Positions 26,799-33,756 of a DNA stretch of 33,756 nucleotides are shown here, one piece after another. Origin of the DNA: Nakamurella sp. (lineage in GTDB: Bacteria > Actinomycetota > Actinomycetes > Mycobacteriales > Nakamurellaceae); NCBI GenBank assembly GCA_017882715.1, contig JADGOY010000022.1:1-33756 (forward strand), in the 5' to 3' direction. The first letter of the stretch is position 1; each line of letters opens with the position of its first letter. The translations under genes and the position numbers were made by a program. The notes beneath the pieces were generated by a model. It was not told the origin of the DNA and did no database searches. It saw only the letters and a program-made list of their open reading frames with translations.

Positions 26799-27281
26799 TC
26801 AGTCGAGTTCGGTGCCCGCAGGCAGCACACCCCAATGGACCAACTGATCGGTCAGGTCCTCGGGGGTCATGTCATAGATAACCGCCAGTGACCGCAGGTC
26901 TTCCGACCGAATGGTCAGGATCTTGCCGTTGTAGTCACCGCGCTGTGACTGGATCGCCGCAGCATACCGCGCCAGCGGGCCGGCCTGATGGGTCGGCAAC
27001 TCGGCCAGCCGCTGCAGATCGATGACCAGCTTCGGACTCGGTGACCCGCGCCGGGTGGCCCGCGCGTCAGGGAGTAGTTCGGCGACCGGCACACCGTAGA
27101 ACTCGGCCAGTTCGGCGAGCTTGGCGACGGTGACGGCGCGGTCACCCCGCTCGTAAGAGCCGACGACGACCGCCTTCCAGCGGCCTTCGGACTTTTCCTC
27201 GACGCCATGCAGGCTCAAGCCCTGCTGCGCACGGATCGAACGCAGCCGCGCGCCCAGCGCGTGTGCATAGTCTGCGGACAT
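26799..27281 (-). CDS. bldD: Developmental regulator BldD (c-di-GMP-responsive)
   Basis: 160-residue DNA-binding protein. N-terminal HTH of the XRE type (about 10-70), including LSLHGVEEKSEGRWKAVVV and GSYERGDRAVTV, near-identical to Streptomyces BldD. The C-terminal domain has the c-di-GMP signature RGD-X8-RxxD: Arg114, Gly115, Asp116, then Arg125 and Asp128, at the same numbering as I recall for Streptomyces. In streptomycetes tetrameric c-di-GMP makes BldD dimerise and repress development genes. ATG 27281 is preceded by AAGGAG at 7 nt. Two BldD core boxes lie upstream, so autoregulation is likely. Confidence 0.96.
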   Translation of the reverse strand: MSADYAHALGARLRSIRAQQGLSLHGVEEKSEGRWKAVVVGSYERGDRAVTVAKLAELAEFYGVPVAELLPDARATRRGSPSPKLVIDLQRLAELPTHQAGPLARYAAAIQSQRGDYNGKILTIRSEDLRSLAVIYDMTPEDLTDQLVHWGVLPAGTELD

Positions 27282-27319
27282 GAGGAACTCCTTGATCCCG
27301 ACGAGAAACCCAACTGTAT

Positions 27320-27328
27320 ACGCAGAGT
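27320..27328. promoter_or_regulatory. BldD box core (ACGCAGAGT)
   Basis: Matches the inner palindromic part ACnC(A/T)GnGT of the known Streptomyces BldD consensus. It overlaps TACTCT on the minus strand (27324-27329), a -10-like hexamer for bldD, so binding would block transcription. The outer consensus bases do not match. Confidence 0.6.
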
Positions 27329-27417
27329 AGTCGCTTTGTACTTGATAGTGCCAGCTGGACGCGCCGAATGCCGGGACGCCGACCGGCGCGATCGGGTGGA
27401 GGCGGTTCGGGGCGGGC

Positions 27418-27426
27418 ACACAGCGT
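27418..27426. promoter_or_regulatory. Second BldD box core (ACACAGCGT)
   Basis: Also fits ACnC(A/T)GnGT. It lies 98 bp from the first core on the pyrR side. Outer bases are not a good match. Confidence 0.45.
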
Positions 27427-27511
27427 CGATGACGCAGTCGATGTGACGCAGTCGTTGTCGTGCGTTGTCGCGCGTCGGAGTCGCCTGGTCGGGGCGCCGG
27501 GCCGTCGTTGG

Positions 27512-27517
27512 TAGCAT
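27512..27517 (+). promoter_or_regulatory. Candidate -10 element for the pyr operon (TAGCAT)
   Basis: TAGCAT would start an approximately 97-nt leader ahead of pyrR that includes the PyrR-binding hairpin. No clear -35 is seen. Confidence 0.35.
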
Positions 27518-27577
27518 GGCCTCGCATCGGTTTGGCCCGTCCGCACAGCTGCGCGTTGGCCGGCCCAGGCACAGACA

Positions 27578-27613
27578 TCCTTTAAGGACCGTCCGGTGAG
27601 GCGGGAAAGGAGG
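27578..27613 (+). promoter_or_regulatory. PyrR-binding leader hairpin overlapping the pyrR ribosome-binding site
   Basis: Contains TCCGGTGAGGC (27592-27602), matching the PyrR recognition core UCCNGNGAGGY, flanked by a stem (CCG against CGG) that replaces the usual A-U by a C-G pair. An outer stem UCCUUU (27578-27583) can pair perfectly with AAAGGA (27606-27611), which is part of the pyrR Shine-Dalgarno AAAGGAGG (27606-27613). PyrR with UMP or UTP would thus stabilise a structure masking the ribosome-binding site. No attenuator terminator is visible, so translational repression fits best. Confidence 0.75.
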
Positions 27614-27620
27614 TCGCGAG

Positions 27621-28400
27621 GTGGCCACCGCGCGCCCGGTTCGACCTGCCCCAGATGACGGCATCGCCGGCGACGCGGCCCGTGGGTCGCCAGCGGCGGC
27701 CGAGCCCGGTCAGACCGCTCCGGCTGCTGCCGGAGCTCGGGGATCGACCGAGCCCGCGACGGAACTCCTCACCGAAATCCTGTCCCAGGCAGACATCGCC
27801 CGGACCATCGACCGGATCGCCCACCAGATCCTGGAACGCAACGGCGAGCGTCAGGTCGTGCTGCTGGGCATCCCGACCCGCGGCGTGTACCTGGCCCAGC
27901 GACTCGCCGAGAGACTCACCGCCTTCGCCGGTCGGTCCGCGCCGGTCGGATCGCTGGACATCACCCTGTTCCGCGACGACCTGCGGCGGAACCCGCCGCG
28001 GGCGTTGGAGGAGACTCGGTTGCCGACCGGGGGAATCGACGACACGATCGTGGTGCTGGTCGACGACGTGCTGTATTCCGGGCGAACCGTCCGCGCGGCG
28101 CTGGACGCGCTGCGGGACCACGGCAGGCCGGCGGTCATCCAACTCGCCGTCCTGGTGGACCGCGGGCACCGACAGTTGCCGATCCGCGCGGACTACGTCG
28201 GCAAGAACATCCCGACCGCCTTCGGTGACGACGTGTCGGTGCGCCTGGTGGAGATCGACGGCTCCGACAGCGTCGAGGTGGCCAGGGCCGTGCCCGCCTC
28301 GGGGCCCACCTCGCGCGCGGCGCAACCGATCAGTGCGGCGATGCCGACCAGCGCGGCGGTCTCGACCGGCGCGCAGCAGGGACGGGGGACACAGTCATGA
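27621..28400 (+). CDS. pyrR: Bifunctional pyr operon RNA-binding regulator / uracil phosphoribosyltransferase
   Basis: Senses uridine nucleotides and binds the pyr mRNA leader; may have uracil phosphoribosyltransferase activity. The PRPP-binding loop [18 protein letters not shown] and the [14 protein letters not shown] segment identify it. Length is 259 residues versus about 180-195 usual: an N-terminal Ala/Pro-rich extension of about 45 residues and a C-terminal Ala/Ser/Thr-rich tail of about 30 residues flank the core. GTG 27621 has AAAGGAGG at 7-nt spacing; a later start is possible but lacks such a site. Overlaps pyrB by ATGA. Confidence 0.93.
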
Positions 28401-29449
28401 CGGTGGCCATGCAACCCAGGGAGCGTGCCGCGGAGGGTCCGGCCTCGGCCGGACCGGCCGGCGTGACCGGTACCGCGCCGACCGGGCCGACACCTCAGCG
28501 GGTGCGGATGCCCAGGCACCTGCTGTCCGCGAGCGACCTGGACCGGGCAACTGCCGAACACGTGCTGTCCACGGCGCAGCGGATCGAGCAGGCCATCTCC
28601 GGCCGCGAGGTGCGCAAGCTGCCCACCCTGCGCGGGCGCACGGTCGTCAACCTCTTCTTCGAGGACTCCACCCGCACCCGGATCTCCTTCGAGGTGGCGG
28701 CCAAGCGGCTGTCCGCCGACGTGATCAACTTCTCGGCCAAGGGTTCGTCGGTGTCCAAGGGTGAATCGCTCAAGGACACCGCCTGGACGCTGCAGGCCAT
28801 GGGCGCCGACGCCGTGGTCTGCCGTCATTCGTCTTCCGGTGCGCCGCAACAACTCTCGGCCTGGGTCGACGGGCATGTGATCAACGCCGGCGACGGCACC
28901 CACGAGCACCCCACGCAGGCGCTGCTGGACGCCTACACGCTGCGCCGGCACCTCGGTGGGCTGGACGGCCGGCGGGTCGTGGTGGTCGGCGACGTCCTGC
29001 ACTCGCGGGTCGCCCGGTCCAACGTGCTGCTGCTGTCCACTCTCGGCGCGGAGGTGACGTTGGTCGCGCCGCCGACGCTGCTGCCGGTCGGGGTGACCAA
29101 CTGGCCGGCCCTGGTGTCCTACGACCTGGACTCCGCGCTGGTCGGTGCGGATGCGGTGATGATGCTTCGCGTGCAACGGGAGCGGATGAGCGGCGCGTTC
29201 TTCCCCACCGAACGCGAATACAGCCGGTCCTACGGGCTGGACGGCCGGCGCCGCGACCTGATCGCCGAGCACGGCATCGTGCTGCACCCCGGCCCGATGA
29301 ACCGCGGCATGGAGATCACCCCGCAGGTCGCCGACGGCCCGGGCTCGGTGATCGTCGAGCAGGTGGCCAACGGGGTCACCGTGCGGATGGCGGTGCTGTA
29401 CCTGCTGCTGTCCGGCGAGACGGACGCGGCGATGGGGGCAGGGTTGTGA
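28397..29449 (+). CDS. pyrB: Aspartate carbamoyltransferase catalytic chain
   Basis: Carbamoyl phosphate plus aspartate to carbamoyl-aspartate. 350 residues. Motifs: [13 protein letters not shown] (carbamoyl phosphate loop), [29 protein letters not shown] and [12 protein letters not shown]. An N-terminal low-complexity extension of about 35 residues precedes the conserved start at [12 protein letters not shown], so an internal start is possible, but ATG 28397 is coupled to the pyrR stop. No pyrI regulatory chain is seen; the next gene is pyrC. Confidence 0.96.
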
Positions 29450-30765
29450 TGAGCACCGAGCTGCGGCCGGTGCTGATCCGCGGCGCCGCTCCGTACGGCG
29501 AGGATCCGCTTGACCTGCTGCTGGCCGACGGCGTGATCGCCGACATGGGCCCGTCGACGGTCACCGACGCCCGCGCCGTCGACGCCGAGATCGTCGACGG
29601 CACCGGCCTTGTCGTGCTGCCCGGGCTCGTCGACCTGCACACCCACCTGCGCGAGCCGGGACGAGAGGACGCGGAAACCGTCGAGACCGGCTCCCGTGCC
29701 GCCGCGTTGGGCGGGTACACCGCGGTGTTCGCCATGCCCAACACCGACCCGACCGCGGACACCGCCGGGGTCGTCGAGCAGGTCTACCGGCTGGGCCGGG
29801 AGGTCGGCCTGGTCGACGTGCACCCGATCGGCGCTGTCACGGTCGGCCGGAAGGGCGAACGGCTCGCCGAGCTGGCCGCGATGGCGAATTCGGCGGCGCG
29901 AGTCCGGATCTTCTCCGACGACGGGGACTGCGTGTCCGACCCGCTGCTGATGCGCCGGGCCCTGGAGTACGTCAAGGCCTTCGACGGGCTCATCGCCCAG
30001 CACGCGCAGGAGCCGCGGCTCACCGAGGGCGCGCAGATGCACGAGGGGATCGTGTCCGCACGCCTGGGCATGACCGGCTGGCCGGCGGTCGCCGAGGAGG
30101 CGATCATCGCCCGCGATTGCCTGCTCACCGATCATGTCGGGTCGCGGCTGCACGTGTGTCACCTGTCCACCGCCGGTTCGGTGGATGTGGTGGCGGCGGC
30201 CAAGAAGCGCGGCACCACCGTGACGGCCGAGGTGACCCCACACCACCTGCTGCTCACCGACGAACGCGCGGTCGGCTACGACCCGGTGTTCAAGGTCAAC
30301 CCGCCGTTGCGGACCGCCTCTGATATCGGCGCGCTGCGCCGGGCATTGGCCGACGGCGTCATCGACATCGTTGCCACCGACCACGCCCCGCACGCCAGCC
30401 AGGACAAGGAAACCGAGTGGGACAACGCCAGTCCCGGGATGCTCGGGTTGCAGACCGCGCTGTCCGTCGTCATCGAGACGATGGTGCGGTCCGGCCTGCT
30501 GGACTGGCGCGGGGTCGCCAGGGTGATGTCGGAAACCCCCGCCCGGATCGGCGGCCTGCGTGATCAGGGCCGGCCGTTGACGGTCGGCGAGCCGGCGACC
30601 GTCGTGCTGATCGACCCGCAGGCGGTGTGGACGGTCGATGCCGACGCGCTGGCCTCGTTGTCCTGCAACACTCCGTATGCGGGCATGCAGCTGCCAGGCC
30701 GGGTGGTCGCCACCTACCTGCGTGGCCGGGCCACCGTCTCCGCCGCCGTGCTGGTCGGGGGCTGA
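29446..30765 (+). CDS. pyrC: Dihydroorotase
   Basis: Zinc amidohydrolase that cyclises carbamoyl-aspartate to dihydroorotate. 439 residues, class I. Metal site [10 protein letters not shown] (His65 and His67), further His in VCHLSTAGS, and ATDHAPH with the catalytic Asp. Start GTG 29446 overlaps the pyrB stop; ATG 29449 immediately follows and is equally good. A long open frame on the opposite strand here is a shadow. Confidence 0.96.
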
Positions 30766-30768
30766 GGG

Positions 30769-31332
30769 ATGCAACGTCTGTGGTTGACGCTTGCGGTGCT
30801 CGCGGTGTGCGGCCTGGCCGGCTACGGGCTGCTGCTCGGGTGGCGGCATCGGGCGGAACGGCACACCGGGTTGCCCGAGTTGCCCTCCGTGCCAGAGGTT
30901 GTCGGCCCTGCGCTGGCACCGCCGCTGACCGGTCTGTATGTCTCGACCACCACCGCGGGGAACTGGCAGGACCGGATCGTTGCCCGCGGGCTGGGCCGGC
31001 GGGCCGGCGGCACCGTGGAGCTGACCGCCCAGGGTGTGCTGATCGACCGGGCGGGGGATGACGCCATCTTCCTGCCCGCTGGTTCGCTGACCTCGGTGAG
31101 TACGGGACCCGGCATTGCAGGCAAGGTGATGGGACTGCCGAACGGGGTGTTGATCATCACCTGGCGGCTGGGCGCCGTGGAGCTGGACAGCGGGTTCCGG
31201 GCCGACGATCCGGAGCGGCAGGCCGCCTGGATCGGCGCGGCGAACGAGCTGATCGGCCGGGATCGCGCACACCCCGACTCGCCTCAGCGTCCCGACGGCG
31301 GGGCCACGACCAGCAACGGAGCGCCGGCATGA
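30769..31332 (+). CDS. Membrane-anchored PH-like-domain protein of the pyr operon
   Basis: 187 residues. One N-terminal transmembrane helix (about 3-25, [20 protein letters not shown]) followed by a soluble domain with beta-strand-like segments ([52 protein letters not shown]), which suggests a PH-like fold. A membrane protein at this exact place, between pyrC and carA, is conserved in mycobacteria (Rv1382 type) as I recall; its function is unknown. It starts 3 nt after the pyrC stop and overlaps carA by ATGA. Confidence 0.82.
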
Positions 31333-32545
31333 GTGCACTCCCCGAGACGCCGGCGGTCCTGGTGCTCGAGGACGGCCCGATCTATCGTGGCAGCGGCTTC
31401 GGGGCCACCGGCTTCGCGTTCGGTGAGGCGGTGTTCACCACAGGCATGACCGGGTATCAGGAGACGCTGACCGACCCCTCCTACCGCCGCCAGGTGGTCG
31501 TCGCCACGGCGCCGCAGATCGGCAACACCGGCTGGGTGGCCGGTCCGGGACCTTCGATCGGCAACGGCCCGGAAAACCCGTCGGACAACGAGTCCGACGC
31601 GATCTGGGTGGCCGGGTTCGTGGTGCGTGACGTGTCGGTGCGCCCGTCCAACTGGCGGTCCACCACCTCGCTGCCGCAGGAGATGGAGCGTCAGGGAGTC
31701 GTCGGACTCTGCGGCGTCGACACCCGCGCGCTGACCAGGCATCTGCGGACCGCCGGCGCCATGCGCTGCGGCATCTTCTCCGGCGACGCAGTCGGTGAGC
31801 CGGTCGACATGCTGGACGCGGTCAGGGCGAGCCCGCCGATGGCCGGCGCGGACCTCACCGGTGATGTCAGCACGCCGAGCATCTACACCGTCCCCGCACA
31901 GGGCGCCCAAAGGTTCTCGGTGGCCGCGCTGGACCTGGGCATCAAGGCCAACACCCCGCGGCTGCTCGCCGCGAACGGCGTCCGGACCCACGTGGTGCCC
32001 GCGTCCACCACCGTCGAGGAGATCGAAAGTCTCGGCGTTGACGGGGTTTTCCTGTCCAACGGGCCGGGTGACCCGGCCGCCGCCGACCGCATCGTCGAGT
32101 TGACCAGGGCGATCCTGGACCGCCGGATCCCGCTTTTCGGTATCTGCTTCGGCAACCAGATCCTCGGCCGGGCCTTGGGTTTCGGGACTTTCAAGCTCAA
32201 GTTCGGTCATCGCGGGATCAACCAGCCGGTCCGCGACCACGGCACCGGGCGGGTGCTGGTGACGGCGCACAATCACGGGTTCGCGGTGGCGGCGCCACTG
32301 GACGAGGTCGTCGACACCCCCTACGGCCGGGCGCGGGTCGCCTTCAGCTGCCTGAACGACGGGGTCGTCGAGGGTCTGGAATGCCTTGACCGGCCGGCGT
32401 TTTCGGTGCAGTTCCACCCGGAGGCAGCGGCCGGCCCGCATGACGCCGGGTACCTGTTCGGGCGTTTCGTCGACCTGATGGCCGGCGCTGACCCGGAGAG
32501 CGCTGACAGCACTGACGAGACCACGACCCGAAAGGTCAGCGCCTG

Positions 32546-32546
<1 letters not shown>
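31329..32546 (+). CDS. carA: Carbamoyl-phosphate synthase small (glutaminase) subunit
   Basis: Hydrolyses glutamine and passes ammonia to CarB. 405 residues. N-terminal domain motifs [14 protein letters not shown] and [17 protein letters not shown]. The class I glutamine amidotransferase domain has nucleophile Cys in [15 protein letters not shown], and the His-Glu pair in [12 protein letters not shown]. Start overlaps the upstream stop (ATGA) and the stop overlaps carB (TGATG). Confidence 0.97.

Positions 32547-33756
<1,210 letters not shown>

Follow-up and report, generated by a model that had tools for sequence, protein, structure and literature searches.

PyrR of the Bacillus type acts by transcription attenuation. 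In Mycobacterium smegmatis, the pyr leader reportedly carries a PyrR site and no attenuator, and control is said to be exerted on translation at the first ribosome-binding site. PyrR translational repression of the M. smegmatis pyr operon is the subject named in the title of Fields & Switzer 2007 (J Bacteriol 189:6236); a precedent by title thus exists for the statement, made in a preliminary description of the DNA treated here, that mycobacterial pyr operons have been reported to work in this way. An RNA regulon survey (PMC3766115) covers the Rfam family RF00515 and is silent, in the passages available, on sites of the type that overlaps a Shine-Dalgarno sequence (SD). For CsrA, Park et al. 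2017 (PMC5574718) report repression of iraD by way of a short upstream ORF: its SD is covered by CsrA, and its stop codon overlaps the start codon of iraD.

In this study, a window of 33,756 nucleotides, the whole stretch of Nakamurella sp. DNA analysed, was found to contain a PyrR-binding hairpin at 27574–27615 on the forward strand, in the leader of a pyrR-pyrB-pyrC-(PH-like gene)-carA-carB operon. The hairpin very probably represents the autogenous PyrR operator of this operon, acting on translation. It belongs to a known kind of PyrR site, and the mechanism is a known one in a new organism; the window hairpin itself is largely ordinary, and the wider pattern of layouts described below matters more.

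The pyr leader and operon in the window

The recognition core UCCNGNGAGGY was located at 27592–27602, with the letters UCCGGUGAGGC. The stem that closes it carries a bulged U, and in it G27591 pairs with C27602, C27590 with G27603 and C27589 with G27604. The middle pair, C27590-G27603, replaces the A-U of the Rfam consensus, as seen in the RF00515 alignment, and corresponds to the compensatory pair of the preliminary description. An internal loop, drawn from the sequence, separates this inner stem (CCG/CGG) from the outer helix, whose 3′ arm AAAGGA is at the same time part of the operon's first SD; the site, which lies in the pyr-operon leader of an organism bearing pyrR, overlaps the first SD in this way. 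The spacing between the SD, AAAGGAGG, and the GTG at 27621 is 7 nt. The core, the compensatory closing pair and the outer 6-bp helix UCCUUU/AAAGGA given in the preliminary description were all recovered, as was its statement that no terminator/antiterminator pair is seen: a simple scan, limited to intrinsic terminators, found no terminator-like site in 27250–27700, and the downstream intrinsic terminator with alternative antiterminator of the Bacillus type was not seen in the leader. The 3-bp basal extension GAC/GUC, an addition to the preliminary description, is regarded as optional, because its columns were unpaired in 23 to 31 of the 57 distinct rows of the order alignment. Coordinates are collected in Table 1.

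Table 1. Features of the pyr leader and operon, in window coordinates
Feature	Position	Strand	Basis
Possible -10 TAGCAT in TTGGTAGCAT (extended -10), putative pyr promoter	27512..27517	+	Read by eye; weak
GAC, 5′ side of optional 3-bp basal extension, pairs with GUC 27613-27615	27574..27576	+	MFE fold
UCCUUU, 5′ arm of outer helix (anti-SD arm)	27578..27583	+	Sequence; partner AAAGGA 27606-27611
Core of the PyrR recognition hairpin, with stem CCG/CGG, a bulged U, CC/GG and the GGUGA loop	27589..27604	+	RF00515 alignment, R1 score, covariation
pyrR SD AAAGGAGG; AAAGGA inside is the outer-helix 3′ arm	27606..27613	+	Sequence
GUC, 3′ side of basal extension	27613..27615	+	MFE fold
pyrR (259 aa, first codon GTG), mRNA-binding regulator / uracil phosphoribosyltransferase family	27621..28400	+	NF003547, 279.9 bits (cut-off 230)
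pyrB, aspartate carbamoyltransferase	28397..29449	+	NF002032; ATGA overlap with pyrR stop
pyrC, dihydroorotase	29446..30765	+	NF006836; GTGA overlap with pyrB stop
187-aa bacterial PH-like domain protein between pyrC and carA	30769..31332	+	PF25362, 148.3 bits; 3-nt gap after pyrC
carA, carbamoyl-phosphate synthase small subunit	31329..32546	+	TIGR01368; ATGA overlap with stop of PH-like gene
carB, carbamoyl-phosphate synthase large subunit, cut by window end	32546..33756	+	NF003671, 739.7 bits (cut-off 599); TGATG junction with carA

The best solved relatives of the window PyrR were 5iao and 1w30, both named PyrR, and a 16-residue block was common to all of them. The PH-like protein had no NCBIfam match. 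Behind the pyrR start, the five gene junctions comprise three 4-nt overlaps, one TGATG and one 3-nt gap; because the genes overlap in this manner, translational control could spread along the operon. A BldD gene (NF050110) lies upstream in divergent orientation. A sigma-70 consensus scan found no promoter. In several of 17 sequences of the same genus, words resembling TTGnTAnnnT are seen again ahead of the hairpin.

RNA folding is named in the preliminary description as a check. In a context of −30/+25, the SD paired with the 5′ arm at a probability of 0.95 in the window and at a median of 0.91 over 60 leaders of the order (231 of 233 pooled leaders were foldable in this calculation), and the hairpin was included in the MFE structure of a 140-nt stretch. 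The energies did not stand out and were set aside as evidence: of four stretches folded, two had z near 0 (−0.24 and −0.06) and two longer ones z of about +1, the isolated hairpin being no more stable than its shuffles. The 81-nt MFE structure folded differently. These data would fit a hairpin that needs its protein, and a fit of this kind is not a proof.

Conservation and covariation of the hairpin

The core motif alone matched 143 times in the 4.65-Mb genome, compared with 57 matches for the reversed pattern, and was rejected as evidence. Four matches fell in the window, and only the one at 27592 had an adjacent perfect stem. Because the motif alone is no evidence, pyrR was searched for in 61 genomes, comprising 60 from the order in addition to that of the window, and was detected in all of them. 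In every one of the 61, the fetched DNA contained a single copy of the core with a downstream AAGG, located at the 5′ end of pyrR. The 61 hairpins aligned almost free of gaps (alignment A1), with the invariance of loop and bulge letters being partly by construction because the search pattern demanded most of the core letters.

A start codon was found 7–19 nt past AAGG, hereafter the direct layout, in 58 of the 60 distinct leaders of the order; its frame reads into pyrR in 42 of these and in 16 is still open where the short fetched DNA ends, while leaders L059 and L061 were left unclassified. At seven loci (L021, L022, L023, L027, L028, L032, and L038), the tblastn match to PyrR begins slightly ahead of the hairpin; these were counted as direct because the start after the SD reads into pyrR. 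In four leaders of one family (L029, L032, L035, and L049), CCUUUAA is replaced by CCUCC or CUUCC, which is still complementary to the SD of the respective leader.

A covariance model, R1, was built from the 61 rows of A1, the window hairpin itself being one of them. When the window's genome (88.6% complete, 403 contigs) was searched, the window hairpin was the best match (62.1 bits, E 7e-16) and the only strong one; the next best had 16.7 bits (E 0.3), and no second strong PyrR site was found by R1 in this assembly, the weak matches being filed as L071 and L072. In a search of the whole window against Rfam, no family reached its gathering score. The sole family matched was RF00515, with 29.4 bits (E 0.025 for 301 nt) against a curated gathering score of 54; the alignment takes in the loop, the bulge and the lower stem and covers roughly the first 45 positions of a model that has 115 and includes an attenuator tail, which leaders of the SD type lack. 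Among 20 chosen loci scanned with RF00515, three passed the threshold (L120, L165, and L172), all with a terminator, and 17 fell below it, including those of the direct layout and the terminator-bearing L158. The Rfam threshold does not flag the SD-occluding PyrR layout. Because it scores below this threshold, the window hairpin was classed as a PyrR site on the grounds of its anatomy and its conservation, and not as a curated Rfam match.

Covariation was examined at two depths. In the order alone, six pairs showed double changes, a number reached by 8 of 500 shuffles; partners slid by −1 scored higher than the true ones (0.125 vs 0.100), and RNAalifold drew the inner five pairs only. Because sequences within the order were too uniform for a strong test, sampling was extended to the phylum. 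R1 matched at E ≤ 0.01 in 218 of 396 phylum genomes, under strict filters that lose weak matches; the PyrR family model matched in 391 of the 396 at E ≤ 0.001, with 362 over the cut-off. Alignment A2 was composed of 77 of 80 fetched phylum loci, the window and 8 others, giving 86 rows of which 85 were distinct.

In A2, whose rows were selected by and fitted to R1, a bias favouring structure, 94.2% of the cells pair. Covariation in relatives, another check proposed for this hairpin, was present: over the 85 distinct sequences, 74 cells had changed on both sides, a number reached by 0 of 500 shuffles and not approached by slid partners (18 at most). The covariation score was 0.215, compared with 0.092 for shuffled alignments. 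Five pairs showed a double change, a count that 18 of 500 shuffles also reached. The slid controls suggest that the effect is real. The pair beside the invariant G-C was G-C in 51, C-G in 24 and A-U in 7 of the 85. Regular expressions used for the pooled leaders described below required parts of the stem and so biased the pooled pair counts, and the A2 counts were used instead.

Covariation was observed for the inner helix, the outer helix being mostly invariant. Pairing at the four CCUU-AAGG columns was seen in all 85 distinct rows, which had been selected by the model, and the pair flanking these columns is U-A in 29, C-G in 16 and unpaired in 29 of 79 rows. The SD-pairing arm hardly covaries because it must stay an SD, and sequestration consequently rests on conservation plus pairing. 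The family with CCUCC or CUUCC and the exchange of U-A for C-G in the flanking pair would speak for pairing of the outer SD arm.

Proposed action of PyrR and alternative explanations

When UMP is plentiful, PyrR would bind the conserved loop and stem (27589–27604) and stabilise the hairpin, so that UCCUUU (27578–27583) would hold AAAGGA of the SD (27606–27611); bound PyrR may also sit over the SD. With the SD covered, a 30S subunit could not load at GTG 27621 and pyrR would stay untranslated. The genes pyrB and pyrC would fall with it through translational coupling and polarity, because their starts overlap the preceding stops. At low UMP, PyrR would leave and ribosomes would either open the hairpin or outcompete it, which would allow expression of the operon. 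We infer UMP-dependent binding, the direction of control and its reach along the operon from PyrR biology and the mycobacterial precedent. The earlier preference for repression of translation initiation over attenuation appears supported by the placement at pyrR in 61 of 61 genomes, the SD in the outer arm and the outcome of the terminator scan.

Polarity occurs in long operons, and the genes here are tightly packed. PyrR might accordingly block translation and Rho then cut off the untranslated RNA, with repression taking place largely at the transcript level; we hold this to be possible but rather unlikely, and it would add to translational repression by PyrR without replacing it. A passive hairpin that tunes pyrR translation without PyrR is very improbable. 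Local folding does pair the SD at a probability of 0.95 without any protein, but the unpaired loop and bulge letters fit the PyrR family consensus, and exactly one such place per genome was found, at pyrR itself, in 61 of 61, with a pattern that demanded most of the letters.

Transcription attenuation as in Bacillus, with the hairpin as an anti-antiterminator and a downstream terminator as the acting element, draws on other lineages. There the same hairpin element precedes terminators; L120, L165, and L172, the leaders exceeding the RF00515 gathering score, are of this kind, and, among the loci classified, a terminator without a coupled leader cistron was present in 9 of 11 from Bacillota and in 5 of 8 from Coriobacteriia. 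For the window this explanation is very improbable, slightly more so than the passive hairpin, as there is no terminator-like site in 27250–27700, mere 7 nt separate the SD from the GTG, and 58 of 60 distinct leaders of the order have the direct layout. Chance resemblance, conceivable because the core motif is common in a GC-rich genome (143 matches), has a negligible probability given one strong match of the full model in 4.65 Mb, a hairpin at pyrR in 61 of 61 genomes and covariation over 85 distinct sequences.

Other layouts of the hairpin and comparison with known systems

A pooled set of 233 distinct hairpin leaders was classified by layout. In 137 the layout was direct, the start 7–19 nt past AAGG reading into pyrR, pyrB or carA (in 19 of them, the frame is merely open to the end of the short fetched DNA), and 96 were not direct. 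Three leaders among the strongest phylum matches (L077, L084, and L087) have their pyrR start at 20–21 nt, just outside the rule. Locus L173 was discarded by the motif rule although R1 detects it. In one family (L142–L144), the hairpin covers the start of an ORF of 471–486 codons matching CarA; no pyrR match was found in the fetched DNA, and the PyrR match of these genomes is on another contig. The gene carA is also found behind the hairpin in Enorma (L185) and at one Acidimicrobiia locus (L222). In L212, L215, L218, and L244, titled Chloroflexi or Dormibacteraeota, the hairpin directly precedes pyrB, and a T run lies between the SD and the pyrB start codon. Nine genomes (G389, G097, G173, G183, G250, G261, G281, G441, and G448) have two R1 matches each, possibly second PyrR targets.

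In Nitriliruptoraceae, Acidimicrobiia and others, the hairpin SD precedes a leader cistron of mostly 14–34 codons, the stop of which overlaps the pyrR start codon as NTGA or TGATG. Examples are L102, L104, L106, L108, L110, L122, L128, L149, and L151, and further ones L160, L161, L191, L229, L261 and others. An ATG was located 10–18 nt past AAGG in 41 of 94 indirect leaders outside the order, compared with 4 to 17 in eleven downstream control windows. Both a gene and a start candidate were available for 88 leaders. In 60 of these, a start outside the frame of the gene lies at 8–19 nt, and in 41 of the 60 the stop belonging to it overlaps a candidate gene start (−1 or +2 of the stop). When only single-frame leaders were considered, overlap was found in 39 of 56, versus 4 of 56 when the second non-gene frame was read from that position. 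In a looser and less clean control, overlap was found for 49 of 74 starts at 8–19 nt versus 27 of 128 starts further down in other frames. The several candidate starts of a gene raise coupled and control counts alike, and related genomes are not independent.

A hold-out set consisted of 40 loci unused before and 20 newly fetched loci, the latter being 16 from indirect or mixed families and 4 from direct families; one without the motif and 7 repeats of earlier leaders were dropped, leaving 52. Coupling was observed in 14 of the 22 indirect leaders with a start at 8–19 nt, and, for those with a single frame and a start candidate, in 14 of 19 versus 0 in the other frame. The remainder included 16 without such a start, 11 direct leaders and 3 without a gene match or AAGG. 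L263 and L304 yield the same peptide and may be one genome. Coupling recurred in 11 of 38 families of the phylum set; among 70 distinct named loci classified, none of the 11 from Bacillota and none of the 8 from Coriobacteriia showed it. A common 16-codon leader peptide, MSAPQSL(Y/H)G..., follows the hairpin in L183, L200, L258, L277, and L292, all actinobacterial contigs; its ORF ends 7 nt before the pyrR start candidate, with no overlap.

Twelve coupled leader cistrons span an intrinsic terminator (L115, L137, L147, L155, L157, L159, L166, L169, L171, L175, L176, and L220). Antiterminator pairing of own versus swapped arms, a weak test, gave no difference at these 12 loci (permutation p 0.80); p was 0.07 for 20 other loci and 0.36 for 15 loci without a start, in which the arms are too alike for swaps to tell. 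Seven leaders, mostly titled Coriobacteriia (L205, L207, L223, L226, L231, L236, and L252), have no start 8–19 nt past AAGG and carry a terminator 52–62 nt on, the 5′ arm of which, CUUCUUGC, is complementary enough to pair with the GCAAGG(A/G) in the hairpin; this arm pairing resembles classical attenuation. L198 and L235 look like leaders of the same type, and the terminator scan found no terminator there.

We are inclined, with moderate confidence, to regard the SD-covering PyrR hairpin as a portable translation operator wired in several ways, to pyrR, to carA or pyrB and to a leader cistron, with possible terminator gating in some, across Actinomycetota and neighbouring phyla. Within this reading, PyrR acting via a leader cistron would repress pyrR only by translational coupling to the leader peptide, and this leader-cistron part appears well supported by the overlap counts. 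That PyrR decides whether a ribosome runs over the terminator inside a leader cistron, a ribosome-gated form of attenuation, is a guess. The stem of the PyrR site contains the SD-like AAGG(A/G), and the same RNA can therefore serve either in an attenuator or as a translation operator. Shifts from one use to the other appear to have taken place among lineages. Among the papers listed in the literature searches, with most subscription journals outside their coverage, no description of a leader-cistron layout for PyrR was found by title or abstract, and the layout, if true, would represent a new mode of PyrR action.

The CsrA-iraD case resembles the leader-cistron lineages only, and not the window; it differs in protein, RNA and gene. 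The Bacillus type has in common with the window the protein family and the RNA recognition element. Unlike the Bacillus type, the window leader has no detected terminator, and the 3′ arm of its hairpin is the pyrR SD. The M. smegmatis pyr operon has the same layout as the window, with the differences that the organism is another one and that the window is known from its sequence alone. Judged by sequence, the layout named in the M. smegmatis title, in which the PyrR site occludes the SD, extends to the order of the window and well beyond.
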